Of a stretch of 43,707 bases of DNA, positions 340 to 43,358 are shown in pieces. The translations under genes and the position numbers were made by a program. Origin of the DNA: a virus; IMG/VR virus record IMGVR_UViG_3300030060_006398, positions 7,256 to 50,962 of that record; one strand, given 5' to 3'. The notes beneath the pieces were generated by a model. That model searched no databases. It worked only from the letters and a program-made list of their open reading frames with translations, and was not told the DNA's origin. The number at the start of each line of letters is the position of its first letter. The stretch's first letter is position 1.

Positions 340-1095
340 ATGGCATTTAAAATGAAAGGCCCTTCAACTCACAAGGGGACATTAAGACATAAGTTAGAAT
401 TAAGTATGGCCAAACCAGCCCCACTAAAAGTTGACCATGATTTAGACGTATCTTTACGTCAAAAAAAATTAGCTGAAAAAGAAGAAGAGCAAAAAAGAGA
501 AAGAGCAAGATTAGGTGAAAAAGAGTTTGATAGAGCTGAAAAAAGAAAAAAGAAAATAGAAGAAAGAGGTAAGAAAAGAGGTACTAGCAAAGAAAAGATT
601 GAAAAAAGAAAAGCTAGAGCAGAAAGAAGAAGTGAGAAACGTCTTGAAAGAAAAAGCGAAAGAGCTAGAAAAAGAATTAAAAAAACACAAGGTAAACTTG
701 CAGAACAAAAAGCAAGAGATTCTAGAACACCAGAACAAGTTGCCGCAGATAAAAAAGCAAGAAGAACAAAAATAGCAGATTCAATAGAGTATTTATTTTT
801 AGATGGTGCAAGACCAGATGACAGGCAAGCCGCTAGAGAGGCAAAAGAAGTTGAACTTGCCCAAGAAAAACAAAAACTAAAAAATAAAAAAAAGAAGCAA
901 GATGATATAGTTGAAGAAGACAAGTCTGTTATGGATAAAATTGAAGATAAGTATAAAGATCCTGCAATGTATCAAAACAGAGGTGATCAATATAAAAACT
1001 ATACTGAAGATGAATATGCTCAAGAAGCTAAAAGACAGCAAGAGATATTTAACAAGACAAATAAATGGGACTGGAGAAACGCACCAAAAAAATAA
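340..1095 (+). CDS. Lysine/glutamate-rich helical protein, candidate virion or DNA-associated protein
   Basis: This is a 251-residue protein with an extreme K/R/E composition. The N-terminus reads MAFKMKG, then KPAPLK at about residues 25-30, a relative of the SPLK/SPFK peptide found in several other proteins here. Residues 40-130 are almost entirely charged and should form a long single helix or coiled coil. A second region (about 140-200) ends in a K-rich run, and the C-terminus is polar with a WDWRNAPKK end. There is no signal peptide or membrane segment. The start is ATG two bases after the preceding stop, and the next gene begins three bases after this stop. It resembles small, highly basic proteins found beside structural genes in marine phages and could be packaged or DNA-binding. 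I do not recognise a named family. Confidence 0.7.
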   Translation: MAFKMKGPSTHKGTLRHKLELSMAKPAPLKVDHDLDVSLRQKKLAEKEEEQKRERARLGEKEFDRAEKRKKKIEERGKKRGTSKEKIEKRKARAERRSEKRLERKSERARKRIKKTQGKLAEQKARDSRTPEQVAADKKARRTKIADSIEYLFLDGARPDDRQAAREAKEVELAQEKQKLKNKKKKQDDIVEEDKSVMDKIEDKYKDPAMYQNRGDQYKNYTEDEYAQEAKRQQEIFNKTNKWDWRNAPKK

Positions 1096-1098
1096 TAT

Positions 1099-1476
1099 AT
1101 GGCATTTAAACTAGGAAGTGAAAGTAGAAAAATAAATTACGGTTCAGCTAAAAACCGTTTTGACAGTAAAGACGATGCATCAATACCAGGAACACCTGTT
1201 ATTAGAAAAAAGCTAGAAGGCGGTATAAAAGCAGAGGCAAATATAGATGGTAGTATATATTTAGATCCATCTGTAAAACCAGGTAGTCAAGAAGAAAAAG
1301 CTATACTAATGCACGAGATGCAACATATAGTTGATATGAAAACTGGTAAGTTATCTTATACAGACGATACACTTACTTGGATGGGTCAGGACTATGAAAG
1401 AAAAGATGGGATGATAAATTATCAAGGTAAATTTTATCCTGAAGGACATTACTCATTACCTTGGGAAAAACACTAA
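1099..1476 (+). CDS. Small zinc-metallopeptidase-like protein (HEMQH)
   Basis: This 125-residue protein contains the zincin signature HExxH as HEMQH at residues 72-76, preceded by the hydrophobic AILM. That is the expected helix of a zinc peptidase, in which E73 would be catalytic and H72 and H76 would bind zinc. Downstream, a Tyr/Trp-rich segment ends in PEG...LPWE, and E123 or H117 could be the third ligand. The N-terminus MAFKLG resembles the MAFKMKG start of the gene before it. There is no export signal, so it would act in the cytoplasm or inside the virion. It is very short for a metallopeptidase and is probably a minimal catalytic domain. Candidate roles are processing of virion precursors or of host proteins. 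The motif is seen directly; activity is inferred. Confidence 0.7.
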   Translation: MAFKLGSESRKINYGSAKNRFDSKDDASIPGTPVIRKKLEGGIKAEANIDGSIYLDPSVKPGSQEEKAILMHEMQHIVDMKTGKLSYTDDTLTWMGQDYERKDGMINYQGKFYPEGHYSLPWEKH

Positions 1477-1478
1477 AT

Positions 1479-1922
1479 ATGAAAGATAAAGATAAAGGCG
1501 AGGGTTTCATGCATCCCCCTTATAAAAAACCAGTGGGGCCAACAGAAAAACCTCATTACGTTCATGGATATAAAAACTTTAAATCTAATATAAAATCAAA
1601 TCATCCGTCTAAAAGAAAAGTATTTAAAGACGGTCCTAAAAACAGAATGCACTATGATAAAAGCGCTTCACCTAACAAAATGGGTGAATACTCGCCTTTT
1701 AAAATGAAAGGCTTTTCTGGTTTTGGAAACGCATCTCCAAACAAGTATACAATGAGTAAAGAGACACAAAACAAAACTTATACTGGAAAAGGAACAGCTG
1801 GTGAAAAATTTGCTAAAAATTACGCTAAAAAATTTAAAACTGTTAAAGGTGCTGTGAGTGAAATAATACCACTTGGCAAAGCAAAGAAAACAGTTAAAGT
1901 TATAAAAGGTATAATTAATTAA
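1479..1922 (+). CDS. Basic Ser-Pro/Lys-rich small protein with SPNK/SPFK motifs
   Basis: The product is 147 residues from the ATG at 1479; an upstream in-frame TTG at 1461 lies inside the preceding gene and is less likely. The protein is strongly basic and low in complexity in its first two thirds. It carries SPNK, SPFKMKG and SPNK within about 35 residues near its middle, the densest cluster of this peptide type in the window. The last 45 residues (KFAKNYAKKFKTVKGAVSEI onward) could form an amphipathic helix. It has no membrane segment or enzyme motif. It sits three bases after the metallopeptidase-like gene and seven bases before the holin-like gene. It may be packaged, DNA-associated or a processed precursor. 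The function is unknown. Confidence 0.7.
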   Translation: MKDKDKGEGFMHPPYKKPVGPTEKPHYVHGYKNFKSNIKSNHPSKRKVFKDGPKNRMHYDKSASPNKMGEYSPFKMKGFSGFGNASPNKYTMSKETQNKTYTGKGTAGEKFAKNYAKKFKTVKGAVSEIIPLGKAKKTVKVIKGIIN

Positions 1923-1929
1923 AATAAAA

Positions 1930-3437: not shown

Positions 3438-3457
3438 TAACAATTAAATAAAATAAA

Positions 3458-6973: not shown

Positions 6974-6975
6974 GT

Positions 6976-9381: not shown

Positions 9382-9408
9382 ATTTATTAATTATTATTAT
9401 ATTATATT
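9382..9408 (+). promoter_or_regulatory. A/T-only leader before scaffold gene, shared with 12180-12205
   Basis: The intergenic stretch contains TTATTAATTATTATTATATT followed by ATATT and the ATG, with no Shine-Dalgarno sequence. It is nearly identical to the leader in front of the gene at 12206, and both genes continue ATGGC(T/A)AAAAA. The match suggests a shared translation-initiation or promoter element. Bacteroidota usually use A/T-rich leaders instead of Shine-Dalgarno pairing. Whether it starts transcription cannot be told from the sequence. Confidence 0.45.
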
Positions 9409-10632
9409 ATGGCTAAAAAGAAAAAAGAAGAAGTAGTTGAAGAAACTACAAAACAACCAAAAGGTAAAGAAACAAAAGGTGATGTTACCAAGGTTAAAAC
9501 AAAAATGAAAAAACCAGCTAAAGAGATAGATAATATCACTAAGGTTGATTTAAAAAATCCAATAAAAAAAGAAGAAGATGCCGTTCAAGAGCAAAGCACA
9601 AATGAGATTCCTGTACGCGACGAATCCGAAACTAGCAAAGAGGTACTCGAACAAAACGTCGAAGCAACAGATGAAAAACCTACCGGAGAAAGCAACACCG
9701 TTCAAGATGAAGCCGCACCCGTTATCGAGGAAATAACAAATGAAGAAAAGGTAGAACAAGTAGCAGAAAAAGTAGAACAAGCTATTGAGGTTGCAGAACA
9801 AACTGGAGAGCCTTTACCAGAAGGTATACAAAAAGTTGTAGACTTTATAAATGAAACAGGTGGTGATTTAAATGATTATGTTAAGCTTAATCAAGATTAT
9901 ACAAAACTAGATAATCAAGATTTATTATTTGAATACTACAAACAAACAAAACCTCATTTAAATAACGAAGAAATAAACTTCATGATGGAAGATCAGTTTT
10001 CTTATGATGAAGAAGATGATGATGAAAAAGAGGTAAGAAGAAAAAAATTAGCGTTAAAAGAGCAAGTTGCCGACGCTAGAGCCCATTTGGACAGGCAAAA
10101 GTCCAAGTATTATCAAGAAATTAAAGGCGGGTCAAAGCTTACTAAAGAGCAGCAGCAAGCTATTAATTTCTATAACGAAGCACAGCAAACAGCAAAATTC
10201 GAGGAGGATGTTACTAACAAGTTTTTAGATAAAACAAATAGATTTTTTGGAGATCAATTCAAAGGTTTTGAATATAATATCGGCGACAAGAAATTTAGGT
10301 TAAAAGTTAGTGATGTTGAAAAAGTTAAAAAATCTCAGCGTGACATAGATAATTTTATCTCAAAGTTTGTAGACAAAGATTATAACATGACTGATCCAGG
10401 TGGATATCACAAAGGGTTATATACGGCTATGAATCCTGATCTTATTGCTAATCATTTTTACGAGCAAGGTAAAGCTGACGCGTTAAAACAAAGCGTTGAC
10501 GAAGCTAAGAACGTAAGCATGACGCCTAGACAAACAATGGACCCTAATGTAAATGTTGGTGGTTTAAAGTTTAGAGCATTGGATAATGATTCTGCTAATG
10601 ACTTCAAATTTAAAATTAAAAACAAACGTTAA
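9409..10632 (+). CDS. Probable capsid scaffolding protein
   Basis: This 407-residue highly charged protein sits between portal and major capsid, where phages place the scaffold. It has a lysine-rich start (MAKKKKEEVVEE), an acidic low-complexity segment (about 45-140, including EKVEQAIEVAEQ), and an acidic DEEDDDEKEVRRKK switch near 205. A long helix follows (KLALKEQVADARAHLDRQK), and the basic C-terminus ends FKFKIKNKR, a usual capsid-binding feature of scaffolds. No protease signature is seen, so cleavage would need another enzyme. Bases about 9598-9735 use C-ending codons (CGC, GTC, CTC, CCC) unlike surrounding genes. It could alternatively be a packaged internal protein. The call is mostly from position and composition. 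Confidence 0.7.
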   Translation: MAKKKKEEVVEETTKQPKGKETKGDVTKVKTKMKKPAKEIDNITKVDLKNPIKKEEDAVQEQSTNEIPVRDESETSKEVLEQNVEATDEKPTGESNTVQDEAAPVIEEITNEEKVEQVAEKVEQAIEVAEQTGEPLPEGIQKVVDFINETGGDLNDYVKLNQDYTKLDNQDLLFEYYKQTKPHLNNEEINFMMEDQFSYDEEDDDEKEVRRKKLALKEQVADARAHLDRQKSKYYQEIKGGSKLTKEQQQAINFYNEAQQTAKFEEDVTNKFLDKTNRFFGDQFKGFEYNIGDKKFRLKVSDVEKVKKSQRDIDNFISKFVDKDYNMTDPGGYHKGLYTAMNPDLIANHFYEQGKADALKQSVDEAKNVSMTPRQTMDPNVNVGGLKFRALDNDSANDFKFKIKNKR

Positions 10633-10649
10633 ACTTAAAATTATAAATT

Positions 10650-12134
10650 ATGGCAATTAATCCAGGTCCTAGTTTGAACAGCGTTTTAGCTCCAAAGCAA
10701 CAAACGTTACGTGAAAACTATATAGACTTTACGAGCGCTGACACTAAAGGTTGGGCTCAACAGTATTTACCAGACCTAATGGAGAAAGAAGCTGAGGTGT
10801 TCGGACCAAGAACTATTTCAGGTTTCTTATCACAAGTTGGGGCTGAAGAATCTATGTCTGCTGATCAAGTTATTTGGTCAGAGCAAGGTAGATTACATTT
10901 ATCTTACAAAGGTACAGTAGTAGTAGCGGGTAACGTTACTGGTTCTGATAACACAGGTAAGTTTACAGTTACTAAAAACATTGACGGTGTAGCAGCGACT
11001 ACTCACGGTGTTAGAGTAAATGACACGGTTATACTTTCTAGTAACAATACAGTTATTAAAGCATTAGTAACAGAAGTTTCAGGTTCTGACATTGAAGTTC
11101 GTCCTTATGGTGCAGCTGATTGTACAGGTCTTTCTACTGTAGCAGATGCTACAACATTATTAGTTTATGGTTCTGAATTTGGTAAAGGAGTTAAATACTC
11201 TACAGCTGCAGGTGCTGTTGATAGCGCTGAAGGAAGAGGTGCTAACGAGCCACAGTTCAAATCATTCACTAACAAACCAATCATTATAAGAGACTACTAC
11301 GAAATATCAGGTTCTGATACAGCTAGAGTTGGTTGGGTTGAAGTTGCTGGTGAAGAAGGTCAATCAGGTTACTTATGGTACTTAAAAGCTGAAGCTGACA
11401 CAAGAGCGCGTTTTAATGATTATTTAGAAATGGCTATGCTTGAAGGCGAGCTTGGTGTACATGGTACTGATAAGGTTGAAGACTTCTTAGGTACAGCTGG
11501 TGATTCAGTTGGTACAGAAGGTTTATTTGCAGCTATCGAAGATAGAGGTAATATAACTACTGGTGTTAGCGGTACTAACGCAGCTACTGATTTAGCTGAG
11601 TTCGATGCTATCTTAGCTGAGTTTGATAAGCAAGGTGCTATTGAAGAGTACATGATGTTTGTTAACAGATCTACTAGCTTAGCTATGGATGACATGTTAG
11701 CTTCAATGAACTCTTACGGTGCTGGTGGTACTTCTTACGGGGTATTTAATAATTCTGAAGATATGGCACTTAATTTAGGTTTCTCTGGTTTCAGAAGAGG
11801 TTCTTATGACTTCTATAAATCTGACTTTAGATACTTAAATGATTTAGCTACTAGAGGTGGTATTAATGCTACAGCTGGTTCTGCTGCTATCAGAGGAGTT
11901 ATGATACCTGCTGGTACATCAACAGTTTATGACCAAATGTTAGGAAAAAATCTTAAGAGACCTTTCTTACATGTACGTTATAGAGCTTCTCAAACTGATG
12001 ACAGAAAAATGAAAACATGGGTTACTGGTTCGGTTGGTGCTGCTACTACAGCATTAGACGCGATGCAGATTCACATGTTATCTGAAAGATGTCTAGTTAC
12101 TCAAGGTGCTAACAACTTTATGTTAATGAAGTAA
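10650..12134 (+). CDS. Major capsid protein (HK97-fold expected)
   Basis: This 494-residue protein follows the scaffold and precedes a strong terminator. Codons are biased to GGT, GCT, TCT and GTT, as in highly expressed genes. An N-terminal arm (LAPKQQTLRENYIDF) leads into a helical P-domain start (KGWAQQYLPDLMEKEAEV). Residues about 85-175 form a beta-rich insertion (VVVAGNVTGSD ... LLVYGSEFGKG), probably surface-exposed. The remainder (FKSFTNKPIIIRDYYEISGS onward) is the core ending in AMQIHMLSERCLVTQGANNF. The fold is expected from context; I cannot align it. The likely co-chaperonin upstream could assist its folding. No cleavage site is obvious. Confidence 0.85.
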   Translation: MAINPGPSLNSVLAPKQQTLRENYIDFTSADTKGWAQQYLPDLMEKEAEVFGPRTISGFLSQVGAEESMSADQVIWSEQGRLHLSYKGTVVVAGNVTGSDNTGKFTVTKNIDGVAATTHGVRVNDTVILSSNNTVIKALVTEVSGSDIEVRPYGAADCTGLSTVADATTLLVYGSEFGKGVKYSTAAGAVDSAEGRGANEPQFKSFTNKPIIIRDYYEISGSDTARVGWVEVAGEEGQSGYLWYLKAEADTRARFNDYLEMAMLEGELGVHGTDKVEDFLGTAGDSVGTEGLFAAIEDRGNITTGVSGTNAATDLAEFDAILAEFDKQGAIEEYMMFVNRSTSLAMDDMLASMNSYGAGGTSYGVFNNSEDMALNLGFSGFRRGSYDFYKSDFRYLNDLATRGGINATAGSAAIRGVMIPAGTSTVYDQMLGKNLKRPFLHVRYRASQTDDRKMKTWVTGSVGAATTALDAMQIHMLSERCLVTQGANNFMLMK

Positions 12135-13018: not shown

Positions 13019-13027
13019 CAATAATAT

Positions 13028-27855: not shown

Positions 27856-28830
27856 ATGTTAGATAAAAACGGTAATAAATTATTGAAACCATCTCCTCTT
27901 AAAATTTTTAAGAAGGTTGGTCGATTTTTATTTGGAGATAATAGAGACAAGAAAGAGGCTGCTGGTAAGCTAAAGAAGCAACAAGAAGCTCTTAATAAAA
28001 TGACGGAAGACTTTTCTAAGATTGACACGTCAAATCCATTTAAAAACGCTGAAAATGCTTTTGCAGGTTTAGAAAATAAAATGTCTAACTTAGACAATGT
28101 ATATGATAAAGCAGAAAATGTTTACGAAGGTAAAATGGACAATGCTTTTGAAGGACAGAAAAATGCTTATGCCGGCATGAAGAATAAGTTTGAAGACATG
28201 GAAAATGCCTTTGAAGATCTTACCGTCAACACACAACAAGCTGAGTTTGAAGCTCAACAAAATCAACAGAACCAAGCAAACATAATGGCACAAATGAGTG
28301 GTGCTGCCGGTGGTTCTGGTATTGCAGCGCTAGCACAATCTATGGCAAATCAAGGTGCTTTACAAGCACAAAAAGCCTCTGCTAGTATTGGTGCTCAAGA
28401 AGCGCAGAATCAAAAAATGGCTGCTCAAGCTGAAGAAAAAATTAACATGGCTACTGCTGAAGAAGGTTCTAAAATTCAAATGGCACAAGCTGGTGAACAG
28501 TCAAGACTTGATACTCAAAAACGTCAAGCTGACATGGATATACAAAATAAAGTTCTTGATGCTGATAACGCTTTACAGTCACAAAGATTAGGTGAAGCGT
28601 CTAAACTACAAATGGCAGAAGCGCAGCAAGCTAGTAACTTACAAATGGCAGAAGCACAAGGGGAAATGGATGTGCAAAAGTTAAAAGGTGATGGTGCAAT
28701 GTGGTCTGCTGGTCAAGAAATGGAAAAACAAAAAACAGTTATGAATATGCAGATGAATAAAATGAAAGTAACTGGTTCTGAAGCAAACGCTCCTAGAGAC
28801 AAAGGTTTCCTTGGAAGTTTATTTGGTTAA
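27856..28830 (+). CDS. Internal virion / ejection-type protein with helical repeats
   Basis: This 324-residue protein starts with LLKPSPLKIFKK (the SPLK motif) and is otherwise Ala/Gln/Lys/Glu-rich helix. Residues 55-125 contain repeated N-A-[FY]-x-G units (NAFAGLENKM, NAFEGQKNAYAGMKNKF). A segment SGIAALAQSMANQGALQAQKAS follows; I recall it as common in internal virion proteins of marine podoviruses. The second half is a Gln-rich coiled coil ending FLGSLFG. It probably assembles inside the head and enters the host with the DNA, as T7 gp14 does. A chaperone-like or scaffold role is an alternative. No catalytic motif or true membrane segment was seen. Confidence 0.65.
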   Translation: MLDKNGNKLLKPSPLKIFKKVGRFLFGDNRDKKEAAGKLKKQQEALNKMTEDFSKIDTSNPFKNAENAFAGLENKMSNLDNVYDKAENVYEGKMDNAFEGQKNAYAGMKNKFEDMENAFEDLTVNTQQAEFEAQQNQQNQANIMAQMSGAAGGSGIAALAQSMANQGALQAQKASASIGAQEAQNQKMAAQAEEKINMATAEEGSKIQMAQAGEQSRLDTQKRQADMDIQNKVLDADNALQSQRLGEASKLQMAEAQQASNLQMAEAQGEMDVQKLKGDGAMWSAGQEMEKQKTVMNMQMNKMKVTGSEANAPRDKGFLGSLFG

Positions 28831-30246: not shown

Positions 30247-33200
30247 ATGCGTAAACCTTCTCCTTTAAAACATAAAGAAGCGGCAAACGAGCCTTTACAC
30301 ACTACTCTTACAGACAAAGAGCACCAAGAACTGCATAATAAAAGTAACGTTCATGAGTCTGAAGATAAGAATATAATAGACCAAAAAGAGCAAGATCAAA
30401 AAGAATCTAGAACTAAAGGCACTGATATAAATGTTTTGTATGATAATTACTTAGACAACCCTGAGGTTATAACAAAAGACGAGCTTCATGAAGGCGATAT
30501 GTTTGATGATGCTGAAGATCGTATGGTTATCAACCTTAGAAATAATAAGACTGTAAAAAATCTTAATATAAAAGTTGAAGGTCCTGATGATGATGACAGT
30601 TTAGATAGAGTTGGTAGACATGACCATGTTAGATTAACAAATGAATATGGAAGAACTCTTCTTATTAGAAAAGACGATCCTAACTATTTAGATAAAATAA
30701 ATACGTTTGCAAAACTAACAAGAGGTACTAGACTTAGAACTGCTGTTGATGAAGCAGAGAAAAATGGTGGTACTATTGATAAGACTATTCCTGTTATTAG
30801 AAATGGTAGACCTGTAAAATGGAAAGACGTAACTAAAGAAGGTAACGAACAACTATATAATAGTCTTACAGAAGGAGAAAAACTAAGACTAGCAGATCAA
30901 GAAACAATTACAGGTTTTGAAACTACATTGTTAAATTTAAAAAACAACAACAATAGGTTAAAAGACGAAACTACAAAAAACGGTATTACAAAAGAAGTAT
31001 ACGAAGCTGGTAGAAAAAAAGGTGAGTACAATAATTATAAGTACAACTTTAATACTGGTTTGTATGAAGAAGTTAAAGATAATGGACCTGTAGTAACAAA
31101 TATAAAAGCTGAGAAAAAAGAAAAAGAAGATCAAGGCGATTACGTTAACACAACAGCTAATGATGGTAAGTCTTACAAAAATAGAAAGTCTTATATAAAA
31201 GACGAAAAAATAAAAAACGAATCAAAGGTACTTAGAGAAATTAGTTATAATGAAGGTCGTGAACCTGGCGAGTACTTTCAAACAAAACAAGAGTGGCTTG
31301 ACTATAAACAACAACAAGCAATAGAAGGTGGACCCGCAGGTATGTTAGGCTATGATCCTGAAGCTTTAGAAAAAGAGTGGAACGAATTAGTTGCTAAAGA
31401 AGAAAGTAAAAATACTCAACTTGTAAATGCAAAAAACAAACAAGCTGAAAACGAACAAGTATTAGACGAAATACTGTCTGCAGAGACTAATGACGACTGG
31501 AGATCAATGTTTTTTAACTTTGGTGAAAATGAAAATCTAGACTTTGGTATGTTAGACGATCAAGTTAGAGAGGCTATATTAGACATTGTTAACGATCAAC
31601 AATACAAAGCTGCTCAATCAAAAGGTATTGGAGGTACAAGTATAGGAGAGGGAACTTTAGATTTTATAACTGGTTTAAATTTAAAAGAAAAAGAAGATAT
31701 ATTAAGGCAAGCTAGAACTATTGTTTTTCAAAACAACGCAGATAAAATACTAAAAGAAGATGCTGAGTATCAACGTGAACAAGAAGATTACTTAGAAGAA
31801 GTTTCAAAGTTTAACACTGAAGCAGATTTAGTAACGCAAGGTATAGAAGAAAACACACAAGCGCTTAAAGAAGGTGGATATATAGATAGAGTAAATGTTT
31901 TAAATCAAGAACGTGAAGATCTTGAAACAGACTTTAGAGCATTACAAGTAAAGTTTAATGAGATAGGTGATGTTGATGAAAACTCTTCCAAAGAAGAAAT
32001 AGAAGCTTACAATTTACTGGTTGCTGAGTTTAACAAACTAAAAGTAAGAGATGACGCTTTACAAAACAACGAGCTAAACAAAGATCCTGAGTATCAAGCT
32101 TTAATAAAAAAAGGTCAAGACTTAGAAAGAAGAAGAGAAGCCTTAATAGCAAAACAACCCGTTATAGATGCTCAAAAAACACAACTAGATCAATTTGCTA
32201 CAGCACATAATGCTTTTAAAGAAACTGTGTTTTCAGAGTTAGGTTATAGCGTTATGGATAATAGTTTTGAAAACGCTTTTGAAAGAACAGAAGAGATAAA
32301 CAATTTTAAAAACCATCTTGTTGATAACCACGGCACTTTAGGTAAAATTATGGATGTTGGCCTTACGTTTGCTGATGGTATGTTAAAAATGCAAGCGTTT
32401 AATAAGATGTTAAAAAACCCTTATGTATTGTCAATAGTTGGTGGAGCTGCTGCAGGTGGTAACTTAAGAGAGATGGTAGAAGGAAAAGAGATTTATGGTT
32501 TAGATGATGTTATATTTGATGGTCTTGCTAATTTTTCTAAAGCAGAAATATTCCCTACGTCTGAAGATGAATCAGGTAATATAACAACTGGTAAACAAAC
32601 TTTTACTTTTAATGGCAAAGAGATAGTTGCATCATCACCACAAGAGGCTTTAGAAAAAGCTAAGAAAATAGATGATACAGCTACACTAGAAGATATACAA
32701 GCTAAAAAAGGTATTGGTGCTTTTTTTGATGGAGCAGCGTGGAATATAAACGGTTACTCTGCTGGAAAGACTATAGCTGAGATGCTACCTTATTCTTTGA
32801 TTATAGCTAGAGAACTACCAAAAAAATTAACTGTTGCAGCTAGAAGAAAAATGGTTCAAGGTGGTGCTAATATAAAAAACAAGCAAGGTGTAAAATCTTT
32901 AAATGCTAAAACAATATTAGGTACTATAAACAATAAATACTTATTGTCTGATAAAGGTAGACAAGCTATGTCTATGGTTAAGGCTACGTATAGAGTTCAG
33001 TATGTAGAAGAAATGGCACAAGCAAAGAGTTTAGGTTTAACAGGTGTACAACAACATGCTTATGCAAATGGTATGACGCTAGCAACTGGTATAGCTCAAT
33101 CAATCATGCCTGATTCTAACTTTTTTGGTAGAGGCGCTGGTAAAAAATTATTACAAGATTTTACAGAAAACCTAAGTAAAACAGCTACAAGGGCTGGTAT

Positions 33201-36200
33201 GAAAAAAGCTACTAATACGTTTTTTAAAAATCTAGCATTAGAAATTGGTGAAGAAGAAGTTGAACTTGTAATGAGAGATATAGTTAGCTCTTCTATGCTA
33301 GCTAGTCATAGTCCTGAGTTTTTTGACATGGAAGTTCAAAGACAAACTCTAATGGGCACATTGTTATTATCTGGTAGTATGGGTAGTGTCGGTGTTAAAA
33401 ATGATTACGAAGCAACTAGAGACAGAGTATATGCTGAATTTAAAGAAAAAGGTTACAATGCTATAAAAGATATAGACACTGATATAGAAGTAACTGATAA
33501 AAAAATAAAAGAGTTAGAAAAGAAAAACGACAAAGTATCTATTGAAACAAGTGAAAACTTAAAAGAAGCTAAAAAAGAACTAGAAGCAGCTAGACAAGAT
33601 GCTATAGATATTGTTACAGCTATTAATGTTTCACCAAAAAGCGTAACAAACGATCAAATAGAAAATATTGTTAAGAAACAAAAGTTAATGAAAGAAAAAG
33701 AAGGTAAAGATCCTTCTGCTATAAAAGATATAAACGATCAAATAAAAGTACTTAACAATAAAATAGAAAACTCTACAGTAAAACAAAACCAAGAGTATAT
33801 ATACGAAAAGCTATTAAAAAACTCTATGAAAATATCTAAAGGTTTAGGTATAAAGTTTAATGAGTCTAGACAAAAAGGATATGAAACAGCTGTTACAAAA
33901 GAAGATGCAAGAAGAAAAGAATATAACGAAGCAAATGGTTTAAATCCTAAAGATAAAAATTATAGAAAGCCTGTAAATAAAGACGCGCCTGGTTTTATAA
34001 CTGATATAGGTGATGGTCAGCAAATGATATTTATTAACAAAGACAATGCTAAAAAGAATAGAAATTTTGCTGTAGCTCAACACGAGTTATTACATGGTGT
34101 GTTAACAGAAACTTTTAAGAAAAACCCAAAAGCAATAACAGGTTTGTCAAAAGCATTAAGAGGTCATTTAACTAAAGACAAAATGTTTAGTAATTATGTT
34201 GACGCTAAGATGAGGTCTTATGAAGGTATACAATCTATTGAAAAAGATGAAGAGCTATTAGCTGTTGTTTCTGAAGCTATAACACAAGGTCATTTAAAAT
34301 ACGACTCAGGTTTTATGAGCAAGATCGGTGACGGTCTTAGAGCTGTTGCTAGAGAGTTTGGTTATAACTTTAAAATAAAAGATGGCAGAGATGTTTATAA
34401 TTTCCTTAGAGATTATAACAAAGAAGTTTCAAGAGGTAGACTTAGTAGAGGTATGAACAGAATAGCAATACAAGGATTTAAAAAAGGTGATATTGCTGAT
34501 ACTTTATTAGAGGAGCAGGACGCTAACGTACAAGAACCTGCTAGAGAAGAAGATGATAGTGTTAGACAAATGGAGTCTTTACCTATATATCAAAGAGTCG
34601 ATAAGATATATACTGATAATAAAGCTGATTGGAAAGATGAGTTTAAAAAGAAAAGACTAGCTCAACAAATGGCTTATGAGTTTGAAGGAAATGTTATAGA
34701 TAGGCTTAAAGATTTAAAAGGATTTGGTAAAGAAGAAAAACAAGATATAGCTTTAGACTTTATAACCTCACAAACAAGAGGTTTGGCTGGAGTTATAGAA
34801 GGTTTTGATCAAGATAGACTTATTAATAAGAAAACAGGTGAGCCTTACGAAAGTGTTAGTGCTTATTTACTACATACTTTACCTAGTGGTAAGTCTTTAT
34901 TAGACGCTAGGTTAATGGAGTTTTATCAAAACGATCCTAAATACTCTAATATAATACAGTCTTTATCTGAAGAGGCAACTCAGAAAAAATTTGAAAAAGA
35001 ACAAAAGCAAGGTATATCTGGTACACGACAAGAAAAAGAAGCCATAAGATTTAAAATAGCAGATAGACTTGGTCCAAAAGCTAAATCTGTAGCTAAAAAA
35101 GTAAGATCAATAATATCAACAACAGATGCAAACGGTAACACTGTATTAAAACCAGAGTATAGAGGTAAAAATATAAAAGAATTAAGAGGTGTTGTTTTAT
35201 CAGAAGTGCAAGAACTATTTGGTATAAAACCAAAGCCTGGTAACTTAACAGCGCCTGATATTAAAAACGCTCAATTTTATATTGCTAAAAATGCACCAGC
35301 GTTATGGTTGATGCTACCAGAAGGTTACACAGAAGGTGGTACGTCTACAGGTGTAACATCTGTTTTAATGACAGAAAGACCTACAAAGAAAAACAAACTA
35401 AAAGAAATACAAGATGTATTTTATACTAAGAGCGTTGTAGCTAAAGCAAAAAGAGATTCTAAAACAGGAGAGTTAATTGTAGAAGAAAAAGCTAAAAGAC
35501 CAGTTAACTTAGAAGTTCAAAAGAAGAGAACTGATATTAGCATGGCTGATTTTAAATCTGTGTTTGGTATAACAGAACGTGGTGAACAAAATCTTTATAA
35601 GAAAGAAACTAATACTAGCTCCAGAATAAGAGCTTTAGTTTCTGAAACAGAGCGAATGATAGTTAATCAAGTAGCTAGAGAGATTGATCCTACACAAGCA
35701 ATGCTGGCAGACGGTATAAGCAGATCAATGTATTCAAATGCGTTTAATAATTTAGATGTACAAGTTCAAGCAGATATATTTAGAGGTTTAGATGCTGTAG
35801 ATACAAAGCTTAACGTTATAGATATAACAAATGAAGATGAAGTTAATAGAGTACTAGACGAAGCTTTTGCTGGTGTAGATAAAAAGATAATAAACAAAAT
35901 TAAAAAAGATATAGGTTTAGGTGTAAGAGGAGCTAAACTAGGAGCATATAGACAGTATAAGAAAACATTAAACGCTTATGAAGCGTCTGGTAAAACTTAT
36001 GACATGTCTTTAATACAAAAAATAGCACAGAACTTTAGAAAAGCTATAGTAGATGCAGAAAAGAATTTAGCTAATACATTAGGTGTTAAATCTTGGAACG
36101 GTAAACCAGCAACAAAAGCAAATCTGTTTCAGTCTAACGAAGAAAGTGCAAACTTGATAAATACAGCTAGACAAGACATTACATCACAAGTAGCAGAAAT

Positions 36201-39200
36201 GAAAGCAGAGGTTGACGCTGGTACTATGACAGAGTTTGAGTTTTTGAAAAACATTGTTTTAATGAACGGTATGTACGCTCAAGCTTCTAAAATGAGTGAT
36301 GGAAGATTTAGTAACGACGAGCCTGGTGGTAAAGTTTATTATAACAAAAAAAATAAAATAGGTGGACAAAGAGGTCAAGTTGTTAATAACGCGGCTGATT
36401 GGGTTGCGCTTGTTAATGCTGCTAGTAGTGATGTTATATTACCTACAAATGAAAAAGGTTTAATAGATAAAAAAGCTTTAGTTGCAAAATATGGTTTTGA
36501 TCCTAAGCTATTAAAAGATAAGTCTGTTGATGTTTTAAGTGAAATTGAAATAGACAGTGATGGTAACATGACGTTAACAACAGAAGCTGCTAGAGAAGAA
36601 CAAGCAATGCTAGCTAGAAAACTAGTTAAACGACAATTACAACATTGGCAAAACAGAATAAATGACGATACCGATGCTTTTAGCGAGGTTGATATGTTAA
36701 TGCAATTTTATAGTATGATGAGTGGTATGGAGACGCCACTTAGAAAAGGAGCTATGATATATGGTATTGCTGATGGTGCTATGAATATTCCTAAAACAAA
36801 ACAAGGTAAAGATTTAGAATACGATCATGCTAAACCAGCGCATGAGGTTATGAATAGAATAGCTAACATTGTTGCAAACAACCCACAATCAAGATGGGAT
36901 AAAGAAATAGATAAAGTATTTGCAGACTACATAGTTAATATAATACCTAAAAAAATGGATACAGCTGTTAAAGAACAAGGAAGACAGTCTGTAGTACAAG
37001 AAGGATATGTTGATGGTGATAATACTTTTACGCAAATAATGGCAAGACTATTTGCGGCAGATACTAGGTATCATCCTGAAATGGTGCCAATAACAAGTAT
37101 TAGTTCTAAAGATAAAGGTAGACGTTGGGGTGAATCGTTTGTTGCTTTAAGAGATAATATCTTAACAGAAACTCCAGCTAGAATAATGCAGTCTAGAAAA
37201 ATTAACGATGCTATTAAGTTAAACAGACAAGGACGTGTTAATCCTAGAGGTATGTCTACTTTTGATTTTGATGAAACGTTAATAGATAAAGGTGAAAACT
37301 TTATTATAGCTAAGAAAGGAGATGAAGAAGTTAAGATTAGTTCTGGTCAATGGCCAATACAAGGACCAAAGTATGCAGAACAAGGATATGATTTTGACTT
37401 TAGCGATTTTACAAATGTAAGAGGTGGTATTGAAGGACCACTATTACAAAAAATGCGTAATCAAATTAAAAAGTTTGGACCTAAAAATGTATTTGTTTTA
37501 ACAGCAAGACCTCAGGAAAGCGCATCAGCAATACACGCTTGGTTAGAATCAAAGAATATAAAGATACCTTTAAAAAATATAACTGGTTTAGGTAATAGTA
37601 CTGGCGAGGCAAAAGCTGTTTGGATGTTAGAAAAGTTTTCAGAAGGATATAATGACATGTATTTTGTTGATGATGCTTTACCTAATGTTGAAGCTGTTAA
37701 AAATGTGTTAGATCAACTAGATATTAAATCTAAGGTTAGACAAGTTAGAACAATGGAAAGCGCAGCTTTAAACGAAGACTTTAATATTATACTAGAACAA
37801 GCGTCTGGTGTTGGTAGAGAAAAAAGGTTTTCACAAGCAAAAGCTGAACTAAGAGGTAAACGTAAGGGTAGATTTAAGTTTTTTATTCCAGCGTCAGCAG
37901 AAGACTTTAATGGCTTATTATATGCTATGTTGCCTAAAGGTAAAAGAGGAGAAAAGGCTTATGAGTTTTTTAAGAAAAATTTATTAGATCCGTTTGCTAG
38001 AGGTGTAAATGAATTAAACGCTGCTAAGCAAAGAATAGGTGATGATTACAAAGCTTTAAGAAGAGCAATGCCAGATGTTCGTAAAAAGTTATCTAAAAAA
38101 ATAACTGGTCAAAAAGATTTTAGATATGCTGATGCTGTAAGAGTTTATTTATGGGACAAGGCTGGCTATACTGTTCCAGGTCTTTCAGAAGCAGATAGAA
38201 AAAATTTAATTGATACTGTTATAAAAGATGAAAGACTACAATCATTTGCAGATGCTTTAGGCTTGATATCAGCAAGACCAGAAGGTTATACTGAACCACA
38301 AGAGTATTGGTTAGCTACAAATATACTAGGTGATTTAAGTGATGCTGTTGATAAAATAGGTAGAAAAGAATTTTTAGCTGACTGGATACAAAATAAAAAT
38401 GAAATATTTACTGAAGAAAACTTAAATAAACTACAAGCCGTTTATGGTCCTAAATATGTAGAGGCACTAAGAGATATACTTTACAGAATGGAAAACGGTA
38501 CTAACAGACAAGAGCGTACTAGTAGATTAGTAAATGCTTTTCAAAACTGGGTTAACAACTCTGTTGGTGCTATCATGTTCTTTAACGCAAGATCTGCTTT
38601 ACTTCAAACGTTATCTTCTGTTAACTTTATAAATTGGGGTGATAATAATATATTAAAAGCTGGTAAAGCTTTTGCTAATCAACGACAGTTCTGGAAAGAC
38701 TTTGCAACATTGTTTAACTCTGATATGTTAAAACAAAGACGTAAAGGTTTAAAAACAGATGTTAATTACGCTGAACTAACAGAAAGTGTAGGTAGATCAA
38801 AAAATCCTGCAATGGCTGCTTTGAATTATTTATTACAAAAAGGTTTTTTACCTACGCAAATTGCTGATAGTTTTGCAATAGCTAGTGGTGGTTCTACGTT
38901 TTATAGAAATAGAATAAACACATACTTAAAACAAGGTATGACACAAAAGCAAGCTGAAGAAACAGCGTTTAAAGATTTTCAGCAAATAGCAGAAGCAACA
39001 CAACAGTCTTCTAGACCTGATATGATTTCACAGCAACAAGCCTCACCATTAGGTAGGTTAATACTTGCTTTTCAAAACACACCTATGCAGTATATGCGTT
39101 TAACTAAAAGAGCCATGCAAGATCTAGCTGCAGGACGTGGCGATTGGAAAACACATGTGTCAAAAATATTGTATTACGGTGCTATTCAAAATTTAATATT

Positions 39201-40140
39201 TATGTCTTTACAGTCCGCATTGTTTGCTTTAGCATTTGATGATGACGAAGAAGATGAAGAACAAAAAGCAAAAGACAAAGAAAAGAAACAAGTAAGAATA
39301 CTAAACGGTATGCTTGATAGTATATTAAGAGGTATGGGTATTGGTGGTGCTGTGGTTGCTACTGTAAAAAACATGTTAATAAAAATTGGTGAAGAAGAAC
39401 AAAAAGACTGGAATAAAGATTTTGATAATGTAGTTATTGAAGGTTTACAACTATCACCACCAATAGGATCAAAGGTTAGAAAACTTAGAAGCGCTGGTAA
39501 GTCTTATGATTACAACGAAGAGGTTATAAAAAGAATGAATAAGTTTGATATAGAAAATCCACTTTACGAAGTTATTGGTAACATTGTATCGGCAACTACT
39601 AACATACCTTTAGATAGAGTTGTTAATAAAACTAAAAACATAAAACAAGCTCTTAACGATCAAAATGAAGCTTGGCAAAGAGTTGCTCTTATACTTGGTT
39701 GGCAAAGATGGGATCTTGGTATGGGTAAACCAGAAGAGGTTGAAATAGTAAGACAAGAAATAAAAGAAGAAAAGAAAGCTGCTAGAAAAGAAAAAGCTAG
39801 AATAAAAAGAGAAGAAAAGAAAAAGCAGCAAGAGATAGAAAACCAAAAGTTAATTGAAGAGAATATTAAGAAACAAGAGGAAGAAAGAAAAAAGTTAGAA
39901 GAAGAAAATAAAAACAAACCAAAAGAAGAAAAGAAAGAAGTTACTTGTGCTGCTGTAAACAAACATGGCAAGCGTTGTGGTAATAAAGTTGTGCCGGGTA
40001 AAAAGTTCTGTACTATTCACGAAAAGGTAGAACAAAGAAAAGATGGTGCTAAATCTCAATGCAAAGCTATTAAATCTAATGGCAAAAGATGTAAGATGCA
40101 AACCTCTTCAAAAAGTGGCTATTGTTATTACCATGATTAA
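30247..40140 (+). CDS. Giant 3297-residue polyvalent ejection-type protein (metallopeptidase, HAD, zinc-finger domains)
   Basis: The protein begins RKPSPLKH and is mostly helical and charged. A zinc-metallopeptidase motif HELLH lies at 1279-1283. A complete HAD phosphatase fold follows near 2340: nucleophile motif FDFDET (D2340, D2342), LTARP (T2419), K2456 and FVDD (D2475/D2476). A hydrophobic segment lies at 2979-2997. The end carries two zinc-binding motifs, C3234/C3244/C3255/H3258 and C3272/C3282/C3293/H3296, after a charged coiled coil. Large multi-domain phage proteins are usually ejected with the genome (polyvalent type, as described for T7-like gp16 analogues). It probably crosses the host envelope and acts on host targets. 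The start is ATG two bases after the previous stop. No transglycosylase motif was identified. Confidence 0.75.
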   Translation: MRKPSPLKHKEAANEPLHTTLTDKEHQELHNKSNVHESEDKNIIDQKEQDQKESRTKGTDINVLYDNYLDNPEVITKDELHEGDMFDDAEDRMVINLRNNKTVKNLNIKVEGPDDDDSLDRVGRHDHVRLTNEYGRTLLIRKDDPNYLDKINTFAKLTRGTRLRTAVDEAEKNGGTIDKTIPVIRNGRPVKWKDVTKEGNEQLYNSLTEGEKLRLADQETITGFETTLLNLKNNNNRLKDETTKNGITKEVYEAGRKKGEYNNYKYNFNTGLYEEVKDNGPVVTNIKAEKKEKEDQGDYVNTTANDGKSYKNRKSYIKDEKIKNESKVLREISYNEGREPGEYFQTKQEWLDYKQQQAIEGGPAGMLGYDPEALEKEWNELVAKEESKNTQLVNAKNKQAENEQVLDEILSAETNDDWRSMFFNFGENENLDFGMLDDQVREAILDIVNDQQYKAAQSKGIGGTSIGEGTLDFITGLNLKEKEDILRQARTIVFQNNADKILKEDAEYQREQEDYLEEVSKFNTEADLVTQGIEENTQALKEGGYIDRVNVLNQEREDLETDFRALQVKFNEIGDVDENSSKEEIEAYNLLVAEFNKLKVRDDALQNNELNKDPEYQALIKKGQDLERRREALIAKQPVIDAQKTQLDQFATAHNAFKETVFSELGYSVMDNSFENAFERTEEINNFKNHLVDNHGTLGKIMDVGLTFADGMLKMQAFNKMLKNPYVLSIVGGAAAGGNLREMVEGKEIYGLDDVIFDGLANFSKAEIFPTSEDESGNITTGKQTFTFNGKEIVASSPQEALEKAKKIDDTATLEDIQAKKGIGAFFDGAAWNINGYSAGKTIAEMLPYSLIIARELPKKLTVAARRKMVQGGANIKNKQGVKSLNAKTILGTINNKYLLSDKGRQAMSMVKATYRVQYVEEMAQAKSLGLTGVQQHAYANGMTLATGIAQSIMPDSNFFGRGAGKKLLQDFTENLSKTATRAGMKKATNTFFKNLALEIGEEEVELVMRDIVSSSMLASHSPEFFDMEVQRQTLMGTLLLSGSMGSVGVKNDYEATRDRVYAEFKEKGYNAIKDIDTDIEVTDKKIKELEKKNDKVSIETSENLKEAKKELEAARQDAIDIVTAINVSPKSVTNDQIENIVKKQKLMKEKEGKDPSAIKDINDQIKVLNNKIENSTVKQNQEYIYEKLLKNSMKISKGLGIKFNESRQKGYETAVTKEDARRKEYNEANGLNPKDKNYRKPVNKDAPGFITDIGDGQQMIFINKDNAKKNRNFAVAQHELLHGVLTETFKKNPKAITGLSKALRGHLTKDKMFSNYVDAKMRSYEGIQSIEKDEELLAVVSEAITQGHLKYDSGFMSKIGDGLRAVAREFGYNFKIKDGRDVYNFLRDYNKEVSRGRLSRGMNRIAIQGFKKGDIADTLLEEQDANVQEPAREEDDSVRQMESLPIYQRVDKIYTDNKADWKDEFKKKRLAQQMAYEFEGNVIDRLKDLKGFGKEEKQDIALDFITSQTRGLAGVIEGFDQDRLINKKTGEPYESVSAYLLHTLPSGKSLLDARLMEFYQNDPKYSNIIQSLSEEATQKKFEKEQKQGISGTRQEKEAIRFKIADRLGPKAKSVAKKVRSIISTTDANGNTVLKPEYRGKNIKELRGVVLSEVQELFGIKPKPGNLTAPDIKNAQFYIAKNAPALWLMLPEGYTEGGTSTGVTSVLMTERPTKKNKLKEIQDVFYTKSVVAKAKRDSKTGELIVEEKAKRPVNLEVQKKRTDISMADFKSVFGITERGEQNLYKKETNTSSRIRALVSETERMIVNQVAREIDPTQAMLADGISRSMYSNAFNNLDVQVQADIFRGLDAVDTKLNVIDITNEDEVNRVLDEAFAGVDKKIINKIKKDIGLGVRGAKLGAYRQYKKTLNAYEASGKTYDMSLIQKIAQNFRKAIVDAEKNLANTLGVKSWNGKPATKANLFQSNEESANLINTARQDITSQVAEMKAEVDAGTMTEFEFLKNIVLMNGMYAQASKMSDGRFSNDEPGGKVYYNKKNKIGGQRGQVVNNAADWVALVNAASSDVILPTNEKGLIDKKALVAKYGFDPKLLKDKSVDVLSEIEIDSDGNMTLTTEAAREEQAMLARKLVKRQLQHWQNRINDDTDAFSEVDMLMQFYSMMSGMETPLRKGAMIYGIADGAMNIPKTKQGKDLEYDHAKPAHEVMNRIANIVANNPQSRWDKEIDKVFADYIVNIIPKKMDTAVKEQGRQSVVQEGYVDGDNTFTQIMARLFAADTRYHPEMVPITSISSKDKGRRWGESFVALRDNILTETPARIMQSRKINDAIKLNRQGRVNPRGMSTFDFDETLIDKGENFIIAKKGDEEVKISSGQWPIQGPKYAEQGYDFDFSDFTNVRGGIEGPLLQKMRNQIKKFGPKNVFVLTARPQESASAIHAWLESKNIKIPLKNITGLGNSTGEAKAVWMLEKFSEGYNDMYFVDDALPNVEAVKNVLDQLDIKSKVRQVRTMESAALNEDFNIILEQASGVGREKRFSQAKAELRGKRKGRFKFFIPASAEDFNGLLYAMLPKGKRGEKAYEFFKKNLLDPFARGVNELNAAKQRIGDDYKALRRAMPDVRKKLSKKITGQKDFRYADAVRVYLWDKAGYTVPGLSEADRKNLIDTVIKDERLQSFADALGLISARPEGYTEPQEYWLATNILGDLSDAVDKIGRKEFLADWIQNKNEIFTEENLNKLQAVYGPKYVEALRDILYRMENGTNRQERTSRLVNAFQNWVNNSVGAIMFFNARSALLQTLSSVNFINWGDNNILKAGKAFANQRQFWKDFATLFNSDMLKQRRKGLKTDVNYAELTESVGRSKNPAMAALNYLLQKGFLPTQIADSFAIASGGSTFYRNRINTYLKQGMTQKQAEETAFKDFQQIAEATQQSSRPDMISQQQASPLGRLILAFQNTPMQYMRLTKRAMQDLAAGRGDWKTHVSKILYYGAIQNLIFMSLQSALFALAFDDDEEDEEQKAKDKEKKQVRILNGMLDSILRGMGIGGAVVATVKNMLIKIGEEEQKDWNKDFDNVVIEGLQLSPPIGSKVRKLRSAGKSYDYNEEVIKRMNKFDIENPLYEVIGNIVSATTNIPLDRVVNKTKNIKQALNDQNEAWQRVALILGWQRWDLGMGKPEEVEIVRQEIKEEKKAARKEKARIKREEKKKQQEIENQKLIEENIKKQEEERKKLEEENKNKPKEEKKEVTCAAVNKHGKRCGNKVVPGKKFCTIHEKVEQRKDGAKSQCKAIKSNGKRCKMQTSSKSGYCYYHD

Positions 40141-40189
40141 AAAACACAAAAAACAAGTGATTTTACATAAAAGGAAAAGATTTTAAACA

Positions 40190-41281: not shown

Positions 41282-41282
41282 A

Positions 41283-41564: not shown

Positions 41565-41569
41565 ATTAA

Positions 41570-41932: not shown

Positions 41933-41933
41933 T

Positions 41934-42311
41934 ATGGGATACGTACAAAAAAATAATCCATTTTCAATTACAAGTTGTGGTAGACGTAGAACGTTTACTC
42001 AAGGTGGTGGACCTGGTAATGATAGAACAAAAACTAGTCCGTTTAAAGCTACGCCTGCCTGGACAAGAAAAGAAGGTAAAAATCCTACAGGTGGTTTAAA
42101 CAAAAAAGGTAGAGATGCATATAAAAGAGATAATCCAGGTAGTACGTTAAGTGCACCTGTAACAAAAGATCCTTCTAAATTAAAAAAAGGTAGTAAGGCT
42201 GCTAATCGTAGAAAATCGTTCTGTGCTAGAATGGGTGGTATGAAAGGACCAATGATGAAGGACGGTAAGCCAACAAGAAAAAAATTAGCTTTAGATAAAT
42301 GGAACTGTTAA
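41934..42311 (+). CDS. Small basic protein with SPFK motif and GLNKKGRDAY block
   Basis: This 125-residue strongly basic protein contains TSPFKATPAW (the recurrent SPFK peptide). It also has WTRKEGKNPTGGLNKKGRDA and a C-terminal block NRRKSFCARMGGMKGPMM ending in DKWNC. This order recalls a domain catalogued as DUF6321 (I cannot verify it here). The start is one base after the thioredoxin-like stop, and the gene ends 13 bases inside the PAP2 gene. It has no membrane segment. It may bind nucleic acid or be packaged. Confidence 0.65.
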   Translation: MGYVQKNNPFSITSCGRRRTFTQGGGPGNDRTKTSPFKATPAWTRKEGKNPTGGLNKKGRDAYKRDNPGSTLSAPVTKDPSKLKKGSKAANRRKSFCARMGGMKGPMMKDGKPTRKKLALDKWNC

Positions 42312-42826
42312 AAGGTTTTCCTGTTAAAAAATACTTAGATAAAAAACCTCCTAGTGATAATTCATTTACCACTATGCAAGAGGTAAAAGATCTAAAAAAA
42401 ATACCTATGAACAAAAAGTTCATAAAAGAAAAAGATGATATTGAAAAATCTTTTGCTTCTATAGTTGATGACAAAGAGCTTGTGGGACAGTTAATGAAAG
42501 AGTCTGTTCCTATTATAACAAAGATAAAAGAACATCACAATAGACCTAGGCCTAAAAAAATAGCTAAAAAAATGGGTATAAAAATGAAAGACATTGAAAT
42601 GCCTTCAATGAAAACACCATCGTATCCATCTGGCCACTCAGCGCAAGGAACGTTGATAGGTTTAGCTTTAAGCAAAAGACACCCGGCAAAGAAGAAGGAG
42701 TTAATGAGTATGGCTAAAAACATATCTGATAGTAGAAATGTAGCACATGCACACTATAGATCAGATTCTTTATTTGGTATAAGACTAGGTAAAGATATGT
42801 ATAAATATATAAAAGATAAAGTATGA
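42299..42826 (+). CDS. Soluble PAP2-family phosphatase
   Basis: This 175-residue protein has all three PAP2 motifs: K75-x6-R82-P83, PSGH (110-113) and SR-x5-H-x3-D (S145, R146, H152, D156). These residues form the phosphate site of the acid phosphatase/vanadium haloperoxidase superfamily, where H152 is the nucleophile and H113 the acid. No membrane segments are predicted, so it is a soluble member instead of a lipid phosphatase of the six-span type. It could dephosphorylate small molecules or an undecaprenyl-type substrate with loose membrane contact. The start at 42299 overlaps the previous gene. The stop overlaps the next start as ATGA. Confidence 0.85.
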   Translation: MELLKGFPVKKYLDKKPPSDNSFTTMQEVKDLKKIPMNKKFIKEKDDIEKSFASIVDDKELVGQLMKESVPIITKIKEHHNRPRPKKIAKKMGIKMKDIEMPSMKTPSYPSGHSAQGTLIGLALSKRHPAKKKELMSMAKNISDSRNVAHAHYRSDSLFGIRLGKDMYKYIKDKV

Positions 42827-42987
42827 GAAATAAACCATTAAAAGGATTACTTCCAAAAGAAGAATCCCCGTTAAAAGCAAAACTTAGTGAAGGTTGTAAA
42901 AGCGCAGCTAAGAAAAAATTTAAAGTATATCCATCTGCGTATGCTAATATGTGGGCTTCTGGTCAACAGAAAAAAGGTAAGTGTTAA
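42823..42987 (+). CDS. 54-residue basic SPLK protein
   Basis: This small gene overlaps the PAP2 stop as ATGA and its TAA overlaps the next ATG as TAATG. It encodes 54 residues beginning MRNKPLKGLLPKEESPLKA, with GCKSAAKKKFKVYPSAYANM and QQKKGKC following. The YPSAYANMWASGQQKKGKC end is a repeated phrase in small marine phage proteins, by recollection. It carries the SPLK peptide at residues 15-18. The overlapping architecture supports a real gene. Function unknown. Confidence 0.7.
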   Translation: MRNKPLKGLLPKEESPLKAKLSEGCKSAAKKKFKVYPSAYANMWASGQQKKGKC

Positions 42988-43358
42988 TGGATTTTTATAA
43001 AACACTTACAGATAAATTTAAAAAAAATAGTCCGCTACCTTGTTGGAAAGGTTATGAACGAGTACCAGGTACTGCACAAGGTGCAAAAGGTAGTTGTCGT
43101 AAATCATCGCCAAACAAAGTAAAACAAACTGGTGGTGGTACTAAAAAAGTCTGTTTGCCTAAAGCTAAAATTGCAAGCATGAGTAGCGCTGAAAAGAATA
43201 AAGTTATAGCTGCAAAACAAGCTGCTGGTAGAGCTGGTAAATACAAAAGATCTAGTAGTAGTAATGTTACCGGTACAAAGAGTGATGGTTTAAGAGATTG
43301 GGTAAAACAAGACTGGAGACAAGTAGGTAATCCTTCAAAAAAATGTGGAGAAGCATGA
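42987..43358 (+). CDS. Basic small protein with CWKGYERVPG and SPNK motifs
   Basis: The product is 123 residues from the ATG at 42987 (an in-frame GTG at 42981 lies in the previous gene). It carries NSPLPCWKGYERVPGTAQG and KSSPNK near the start, a Ser/Lys-rich middle, and the end DGLRDWVKQDWRQVGNP followed by KKCGEA. The end recalls DUF5872-type phage proteins (not verified). It is basic with no membrane segment. Its TGA overlaps the next start as ATGA. It may be a processed or packaged peptide. Function unknown. Confidence 0.7.
   Translation: MDFYKTLTDKFKKNSPLPCWKGYERVPGTAQGAKGSCRKSSPNKVKQTGGGTKKVCLPKAKIASMSSAEKNKVIAAKQAAGRAGKYKRSSSSNVTGTKSDGLRDWVKQDWRQVGNPSKKCGEA

Follow-up and report, generated by a model that had tools for sequence, protein, structure and literature searches.

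Why should the same short peptide, S-P-x-K, recur in unrelated proteins of a single phage? The question is raised by IMG/VR record IMGVR_UViG_3300030060_006398, of which bases 7,256-50,962 of 50,962, a stretch of 43,707 nucleotides referred to here as the window, were analysed; genes are named by their start coordinates in the window, and L088 designates the stretch that covers the record to the left of it. The answer has two parts. SPxK and a companion start, MAFKMKG, recur at the N-termini of unrelated proteins far above chance, in uncultured marine phages with a capsid-protein family in common, and both are kept as peptides. What they do is less certain: the best reading, to which we would give somewhat less than an even chance, is that they act as an N-terminal tag by which unrelated proteins are loaded into the virion, working like the capsid-targeting sequence (CTS) of phage T4.

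Translation of the genes concerned (Table 1) confirmed the claim of an earlier note on this DNA that the motif recurs in unrelated proteins. The 33 window proteins contain six copies of SP[LF]K in six proteins, against a mean of 0.29 and a maximum of 3 in 1,000 composition shuffles, and nine copies of SP[LFN]K in seven proteins (shuffles: mean 0.42, maximum 3), and four SP[LF]K copies lie within the first 15 residues, where the shuffle mean is 0.009; the SP dipeptide itself is not enriched in these proteins (29 versus 36 shuffled). The shuffle check proposed in that note is thereby answered, and chance arising from composition, its stated alternative, is excluded. The peptides KPAPLK (gene 340) and SPLP (gene 42987), which it had also listed, are present, fall outside SP[LFN]K and were left uncounted; its placement of the motif in the first 15 residues of three large genes is right as to the placement and loose as to the size, 27856 encoding only 324 residues. 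An SPTK at residue 579 of the portal protein was set aside as an ordinary feature of a conserved portal segment, in which SP[TA]K occurs in 16 of 22 related records. Across the full record 19 SPxK are found where 3.4 are expected; nine of them lie in the 7,255 bases to the window's left, seven of these in one 324-residue Lys/Ala-rich chain (L088:3215-4189). The four SPLK, three SPNK and two SPFK copies in the window use nine distinct codon spellings, so the motif is not a DNA repeat.

SPxK does not stand alone. One small-gene cluster contains MAFKMKG (340), MAFKLG (1099) and SPFKMKG (1479), and a further sequence of the SPFKMKG type, MTEYSPFKMKGF, is found at L088:4201. Scanning IMG/VR with the MAFKMKG DNA pattern returned at least 119 stretches, and 140 distinct MAFKMKG starts were read in relatives, among which the Gly wobble position is free (information 0.06 bit) and the other wobbles vary; together with the differing spellings of SPxK this rules out a DNA repeat or common regulatory DNA, and the tags are thus selected at the level of the peptide. 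In the same 140 starts residues 8-10 favour F/S, P/S and F/L/M/Y. MAFKMKG sits exactly at gene starts and is preceded by an A-rich stretch, which we take to fit Bacteroidota translation starts; this stretch and the relatives of the phages together point to a marine flavobacterium as the probable host.

Two tag-pattern scans, together with L055, provided 139 tagged loci, 111 of which contain genes of the window's phage group, a point in favour of virion loading. All loci taken together, which were in part selected by the tag, contain 254 distinct tagged proteins in 129 families (median 120 amino acids (aa)), mostly small and Lys-rich, which is a further point in favour; SPxK is also present in the first 60 residues of 76 of them, at a varying distance from FK. 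Among 27 large tagged records, hand-chosen from the longer contigs of the two scans, 26 encode the capsid-protein family of the window at 53-75% identity, the exception being a record of 119,995 bases. In the genome_contigs collection the MAFKMKG DNA pattern occurs in 27 stretches from varied bacteria and an archaeon; for the 12 in which the peptide-bearing open reading frame (ORF) was seen, the peptide is at the start in two (L289, L297) and internal in ten, and naming a host from these matches was rejected because the peptide lies mostly inside proteins. Some long tagged proteins carry AMKMKKE-like repeats (L247:437-1696, L143:3600, L189:816-1799). Searches of the open-licence papers of PubMed Central gave none for MAFKMKG or for DUF6321, a domain of several tagged proteins, and among the titles and abstracts listed there for capsid targeting and N-terminal tags none describes this tag.

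A tag-independent set of records found by their terminase comprises 1,089 distinct ORFs, of which the proteins of at least 60 aa were clustered on residues 26 onward into 146 families. FK[ML] within the first nine residues is found in 20 of the 146 families, against 3.2 in shuffles (maximum 9) and 0.7 in internal windows (maximum 3), and SPxK within the first 25 residues in 16 families, against 5.2 in shuffles (maximum 9) and an average of 8.3 in internal windows (maximum 13). Taking one random protein per family gives 18.9 versus 1.2 for FK[ML] and 9.7 versus 1.3 for SPxK; without the window's own record, SPxK remains in 13 families versus 5.1 (maximum 12); and the 40 FK-tagged proteins still form 17 groups under looser clustering. 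The tag is not a picked pattern, since AF.M, KM.G, FK.K and SP.K occupy ranks 1-4 among 4,473 XY.Z patterns in residues 2-25 of the 146 families. NPF, considered as another general tag, is unenriched in this set (3 families versus 4.0).

By homology the window belongs with the Flavobacterium elemo and Cellulophaga phages (terminase identity 32-65% in L001 and L003-L006), its terminase being 65% identical to the terminase of an uncultured Manatee Spring phage, with 45% for Flavobacterium elemo phages and 32-38% for Cellulophaga and Tenacibaculum phages. Portal identity in these five stretches is 26-50% and capsid-protein identity 26-48% in four of them, no match being found in L006. Among the 261 ORFs in six stretches of five named relatives, SPxK is nowhere N-terminal and a single FK start was found, on the elemoE scaffold-position protein (MFKMKLEG), and neither tag is present in the loci examined from crAss001 (32 ORFs), a pelagiphage (53), a T4-like phage (98) and eight cyanomyoviruses (84). 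That the tag might be common to the wider phage group, or to marine phages at large, was rejected, these controls not showing it beyond that one start. The N-terminal bias on unrelated proteins has held in related phages chosen blind to the motif, which supports the note's idea of a shared tag, with two amendments: SP[LF]K was too narrow, the tag being larger and going with MAFKMKG, and the excess it looked for in related phages is strong in the uncultured marine relatives and missing from the named ones.

If the tag serves virion loading, SPxK and MAFKMKG would be parts of one short N-terminal label which, unfolded and exposed, would bind a docking site within the procapsid or the portal region and so carry its protein inside as the particle assembles; at infection the proteins thus loaded would leave together with the DNA. 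More specifically, our guess would have FKMKG mimic the FKFKIK tail of the presumed scaffold and use the same docking site, with SPxK as a second or alternative docking element that stands alone on 27856, 30247 and 18284. Taken to its full extent, as a portable code in which MAFKMKG and/or SPxK may be added to any gene in imitation of the scaffold tail, so that well over 100 different small proteins would be head-loaded for delivery to the host, the proposal becomes bolder and we consider it unlikely.

Three genes offer possible links to the virion. Gene order and inspection by eye allowed the position of 27856 to be assigned in 26 of 44 records, the region being missing or unlisted in the other 18. 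SPx[KR] is present at the N-terminus of this position in ten of the 26 (0.32 in 2,000 rounds of shuffling, maximum 3; none in internal windows) and strict SPxK in eight, and in several a hydrophobic/basic stretch follows directly, as in SPLKIFKK, SPLKIFGAIGG, SPAKLFPV, SPARFLGA and SPTKFLGN. The 27856 protein has no match in Pfam or PHROGs. Several late-region proteins of Cellulophaga phage phi18:3 are annotated as found in the virion by tandem mass spectrometry, their correspondence to those of the window being by gene order only. The muzzle-like protein is divided near its start in the window; in the relatives listed, its start GKMNKDLDERL heads a single ORF of about 1,400-3,500 residues, some of them broken further downstream (G002, G008), and the second part in the window has a new start, MKKSSPLK. 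Its Pfam matches (PF25731, E 2.1e-6; PF25729, E 1.7e-4) are both below the curated cut-off. Thirdly, the product of 9409, which is presumed from gene order and shape to be the scaffold and has no match in Pfam or PHROGs, belongs to the only one of the 146 families with a C-terminal FK[MFILV]K (38 of 55 members); the same pattern is N-terminal in 18 families (internal windows 1.0 on average, maximum 3). The looser form [FL][KR]-hydrophobic-[KR] lies in the last 16 residues of 59 of 62 scaffolds, or of 58 of 61 when the distant protein of phi38:1 is excluded. This likeness is suggestive because in P22 the scaffold C-terminus binds coat protein (PMC9965877). Among the sorting, packaging and processing roles proposed in the note, packaging is thus favoured by SPx[KR] at the 27856 position and, weakly, by the co-occurrence with one capsid family; processing found no support.

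The identities of the tagged proteins are varied. Few of 84 tagged representatives have a Pfam match; eleven families were hit at E ≤0.01, including DUF6321 (three members) and Peptidase_S74 (one), the remainder being single members with mostly weak matches; PHROGs gave some tail-fibre, baseplate and structural families with one member each. DUF6321-like sequence is present in 467 phage records, mostly of cyanophages and pelagiphages, and two placements of it agree with a virion role: in pelagiphage HTVC131P it lies between the scaffold and capsid genes, and in cyanophage S-B43 it is annotated as 'structural protein'. The leader ahead of the DUF6321, KVCLPKAKIASMS and KVYPSAYAN segments varies from phage to phage, examples being MAFKMKG...SPLK, MAYxQxNNPF and MPGSPxQN. 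A leader resembling MAYxQxNNPF recurs on three cargo domains, DUF6321, KVCLP and PSAYA (L183, L224, L233 and others). Left of the window, an SPMK protein (L088:2452-3204) matches phrog_6121 'virion structural protein' and phrog_4287 'DNA ejection protein' and, more weakly and through its C-terminal end, tail-fibre families; that end is S74-like (PF13884, E 0.0019, below cut-off).

Several observations weigh against virion loading as the function of the tag. The 27856 position is without SPx[KR] in 16 of the 26 records, as are most equivalents of 30247 and of the muzzle, and the rate of SPxK in internal windows means that part of the 16 SPxK families is background. Of 20 terminase-anchored loci that extend at least 5 kb upstream, only seven contain a strict FK tag, one of the seven being false (a tail fibre with the start MANEFKVKKGL), and three show SPxK in the first 30 residues. 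The named relatives, with capsid proteins 26-48% identical, are practically tagless, and in the otherwise tag-poor elemoE it is the scaffold-position protein itself that has FKMK, at its start. The records of the phage group share the whole late module, so that having a capsid family in common says little for binding to the capsid. As to the scaffold, the model is of low confidence at the tail, and the likeness may be coincidence, FKxK being an ordinary strand pattern as well; in 21 records chosen for MAFKMKG or SPFKMKGF, where FK counts are partly circular, the FKxK end is found in 11 of 21 scaffolds and in one member each of three other families. A T4-like start on DUF6321 proteins was clear in one and weak in two of nine T4-like loci, so the notion that the same cargo domain bears the CTS in T4-like phages was set aside as weak.

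No other single observation speaks as strongly against a tag for cargo only as the HExxH metallopeptidase of gene 1099, with which the most viable of the alternatives is bound up, namely that a cationic amphipathic N-terminus sends small basic proteins and the peptidase to the envelope late in infection. At the terminase loci 144 of 1,908 upstream ORFs are tagged versus 6 of 677 downstream, and the upstream region contains both a holin (PF11351) and this metallopeptidase, which accounts for 21 of the 40 tagged proteins in the terminase-anchored set and is the largest tagged family there. Its 101 distinct homologues start with F[KR][LMI] in 91 cases and contain HExxH, as in gluzincin-type enzymes, in 99, and over 101 loci its median start-to-start distance from the holin is 786 bases, which suggests a role in lysis or in the late cell. 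The metallopeptidase need not be the lysin, since among the 28 of 44 records that encode it ten also hold a second candidate lysin, M15 (seven) or DUF5675 (three); it coexists with these in 7 of 7 M15 and 3 of 6 DUF5675 records, which refutes a mutual exclusion of metallopeptidase and DUF5675 lysin. An envelope or lysis tag would moreover leave unexplained the SPxK at the 27856 position, on the giant protein and on one half of the muzzle, as well as the likeness to the scaffold, and we regard it as rather improbable. In a structural model of 1099 the first 26 residues are of low confidence and the body is better modelled; a fold search gave selecase and abylysin as best matches at E 0.1-0.2 and none at E 0.001, and the family, being without a clear solved relative, is a candidate new lysis or virion peptidase.

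The lysine content of the tagged proteins, 16.7% versus 8.6% in the rest, would suit a second possibility, in which SPxK, like SPKK, is a DNA-binding element on Lys-rich proteins that neutralise the packaged DNA, and the L088:3215-4189 chain with its seven SPxK is of the kind expected. The third position is, however, L, F, N or T in the window and K or R in none of ten SPxK, so that identity with the SPKK motif was rejected, and a single N-terminal copy on huge proteins would be unlike DNA compaction; we consider this improbable. Alternatively, the tags may be leftovers of gene shuffling, new small genes having recombined onto a ready-made start whose peptide does little. Singletons account for 101 of the 129 tagged families, and MAFKMKG lies exactly at gene starts behind the A-rich stretch, as such an origin would have it; the free Gly wobble and differing spellings argue instead for selection of the peptide, and the distance from SPxK to FK is variable, making this a slim prospect. 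A processing signal for a phage or host protease, suggested by the N-terminal placement and by the tagged metallopeptidase in the same gene cluster, is the least probable of all, the motif occurring also further in, at residues 35-86, and as many as seven times in a single protein.

The predicted late module of the window is podovirus-like, and its features are collected in Table 1. N-termini like that of gene 340 occur also in L153 and L266, and the 42987 homologues in L024, L032 and L034 carry SPTK. The 28854, 42987 and L088:3215 proteins have no match in the phage collection, and 28854 has no relative in the viral-contig scan. A PAP2-type phosphatase (PF01569, E 2.7e-9) is encoded among the tagged small genes at window positions 42299-42826, and one ORF, L183:4173-5039, combines a PAP2-like part (E 5.8e-6, just below cut-off) with the 42987 domain. 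The 30247-40140 protein has C-terminal zinc-finger-like repeats (DUF5763, E 7e-5, below cut-off). At 41570-41932 lies a gene for a thioredoxin-like protein (PF00085, E 5.9e-6) in which a stretch at the N-terminus is hydrophobic, and left of the window GroEL-like (PF00118, L088:4842-6404) and GroES-like (PF00166, L088:6391-6651) genes adjoin the tagged cluster.

Table 1. Late-module and tag-bearing genes of the window, with motif positions in nucleotides and, in brackets, the residue at which SPxK begins.
Feature	Position	Strand	Motif or remark
Lys-rich 251-aa protein beginning MAFKMKGPSTHKGTLRHKL	340..1095	+	MAFKMKG at 340-360
HExxH metallopeptidase-like 125-aa protein, start MAFKLG	1099..1476	+	
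Basic 147-aa protein	1479..1922	+	SPNK 1668-1679 (64), SPFKMKG 1692-1712 (SPFK, 72), SPNK 1734-1745 (86)
Large terminase	starts 4754		
Portal	starts 6976		
Presumed scaffold, between portal and major capsid protein	9409..10632	+	tail FKFKIK at 10603-10620
Presumed major capsid protein	10650..12134	+	phrog_13704 (virion structural protein); 'major capsid' from gene order
Muzzle-like protein, first part	15358..18282	+	
Muzzle-like protein, second part, own N-terminus MKKSSPLK	18284..25891	+	SPLK 18296-18307 (5)
324-aa protein in internal-virion-protein position	27856..28830	+	SPLKIF near N-terminus; SPLK 27892-27903 (13)
Gene between 27856 and 30247	starts 28854		
3,297-aa protein, start MRKPSPLK	30247..40140	+	SPLK 30259-30270 (5)
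DUF6321 protein with N-terminal extension	41934..42311	+	SPFK 42036-42047 (35)
54-aa protein (phrog_27331)	42823..42987	+	SPLK 42865-42876 (15), ahead of KVYPSAYANMW segment
Basic 123-aa protein	42987..43358	+	SPNK 43107-43118 (41)

Should virion loading prove to be the function of the tag, the injected proteins of a widespread marine phage group would become recognisable by sequence alone, opening a route to the anti-host functions of 129 mostly unnamed families; a short peptide would be at hand for putting foreign proteins into phage heads, and a convergence of scaffold tails and cargo tags would have been shown.

Among known systems, the sperm-histone SPKK motif, a repeated S-P-x-K in basic chains (PMC9903204), differs from the window's SPxK, the third position of which is not basic. 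The MuF polymorphic toxins of Bacteroidales prophages combine diverse C-terminal parts with one shared N-terminal region, for which capsid targeting has been hypothesised (PMC11699363); MuF is a large domain, in contrast to the short linear peptide seen here. Muzzle and cargo proteins are described for crAss001 of the Crassvirales (PMC10172136), and in the window, likewise, genes stand where cargo proteins would be expected behind a muzzle-like protein. Tag enrichment is nevertheless absent from the crAss001 region examined, tblastn at E 1e-3 matched neither the capsid nor the portal of the window to the crAss001 stretch L132, and the terminase matches listed include no member of the Crassvirales by name, being to Flavobacterium, Cellulophaga, Tenacibaculum and Maribacter phages instead. 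For head proteins of SPN3US and phiKZ-like phages, it has been proposed that N-terminal segments direct ejection proteins to the prohead (PMC5694885). Several of these propeptides exceed 100 residues (one has 20) and they are cleaved by a prohead protease, whereas the tags described here are short and not known to be cleaved.

The consensus of the T4 CTS is of the MKTYxEF type, and the starts observed here are by inspection MAFKMKG or SPxK, with no MKTYxEF-type sequence among them. The present case also concerns another type of phage and a two-part tag, seen on 129 families. The likeness lies in the principle: in T4, as set out in PMC3012670 and PMC5694885, a short N-terminal peptide is common to the diverse small internal proteins IPI-III and Alt, and here too the same short N-terminal peptide is carried by unrelated proteins.

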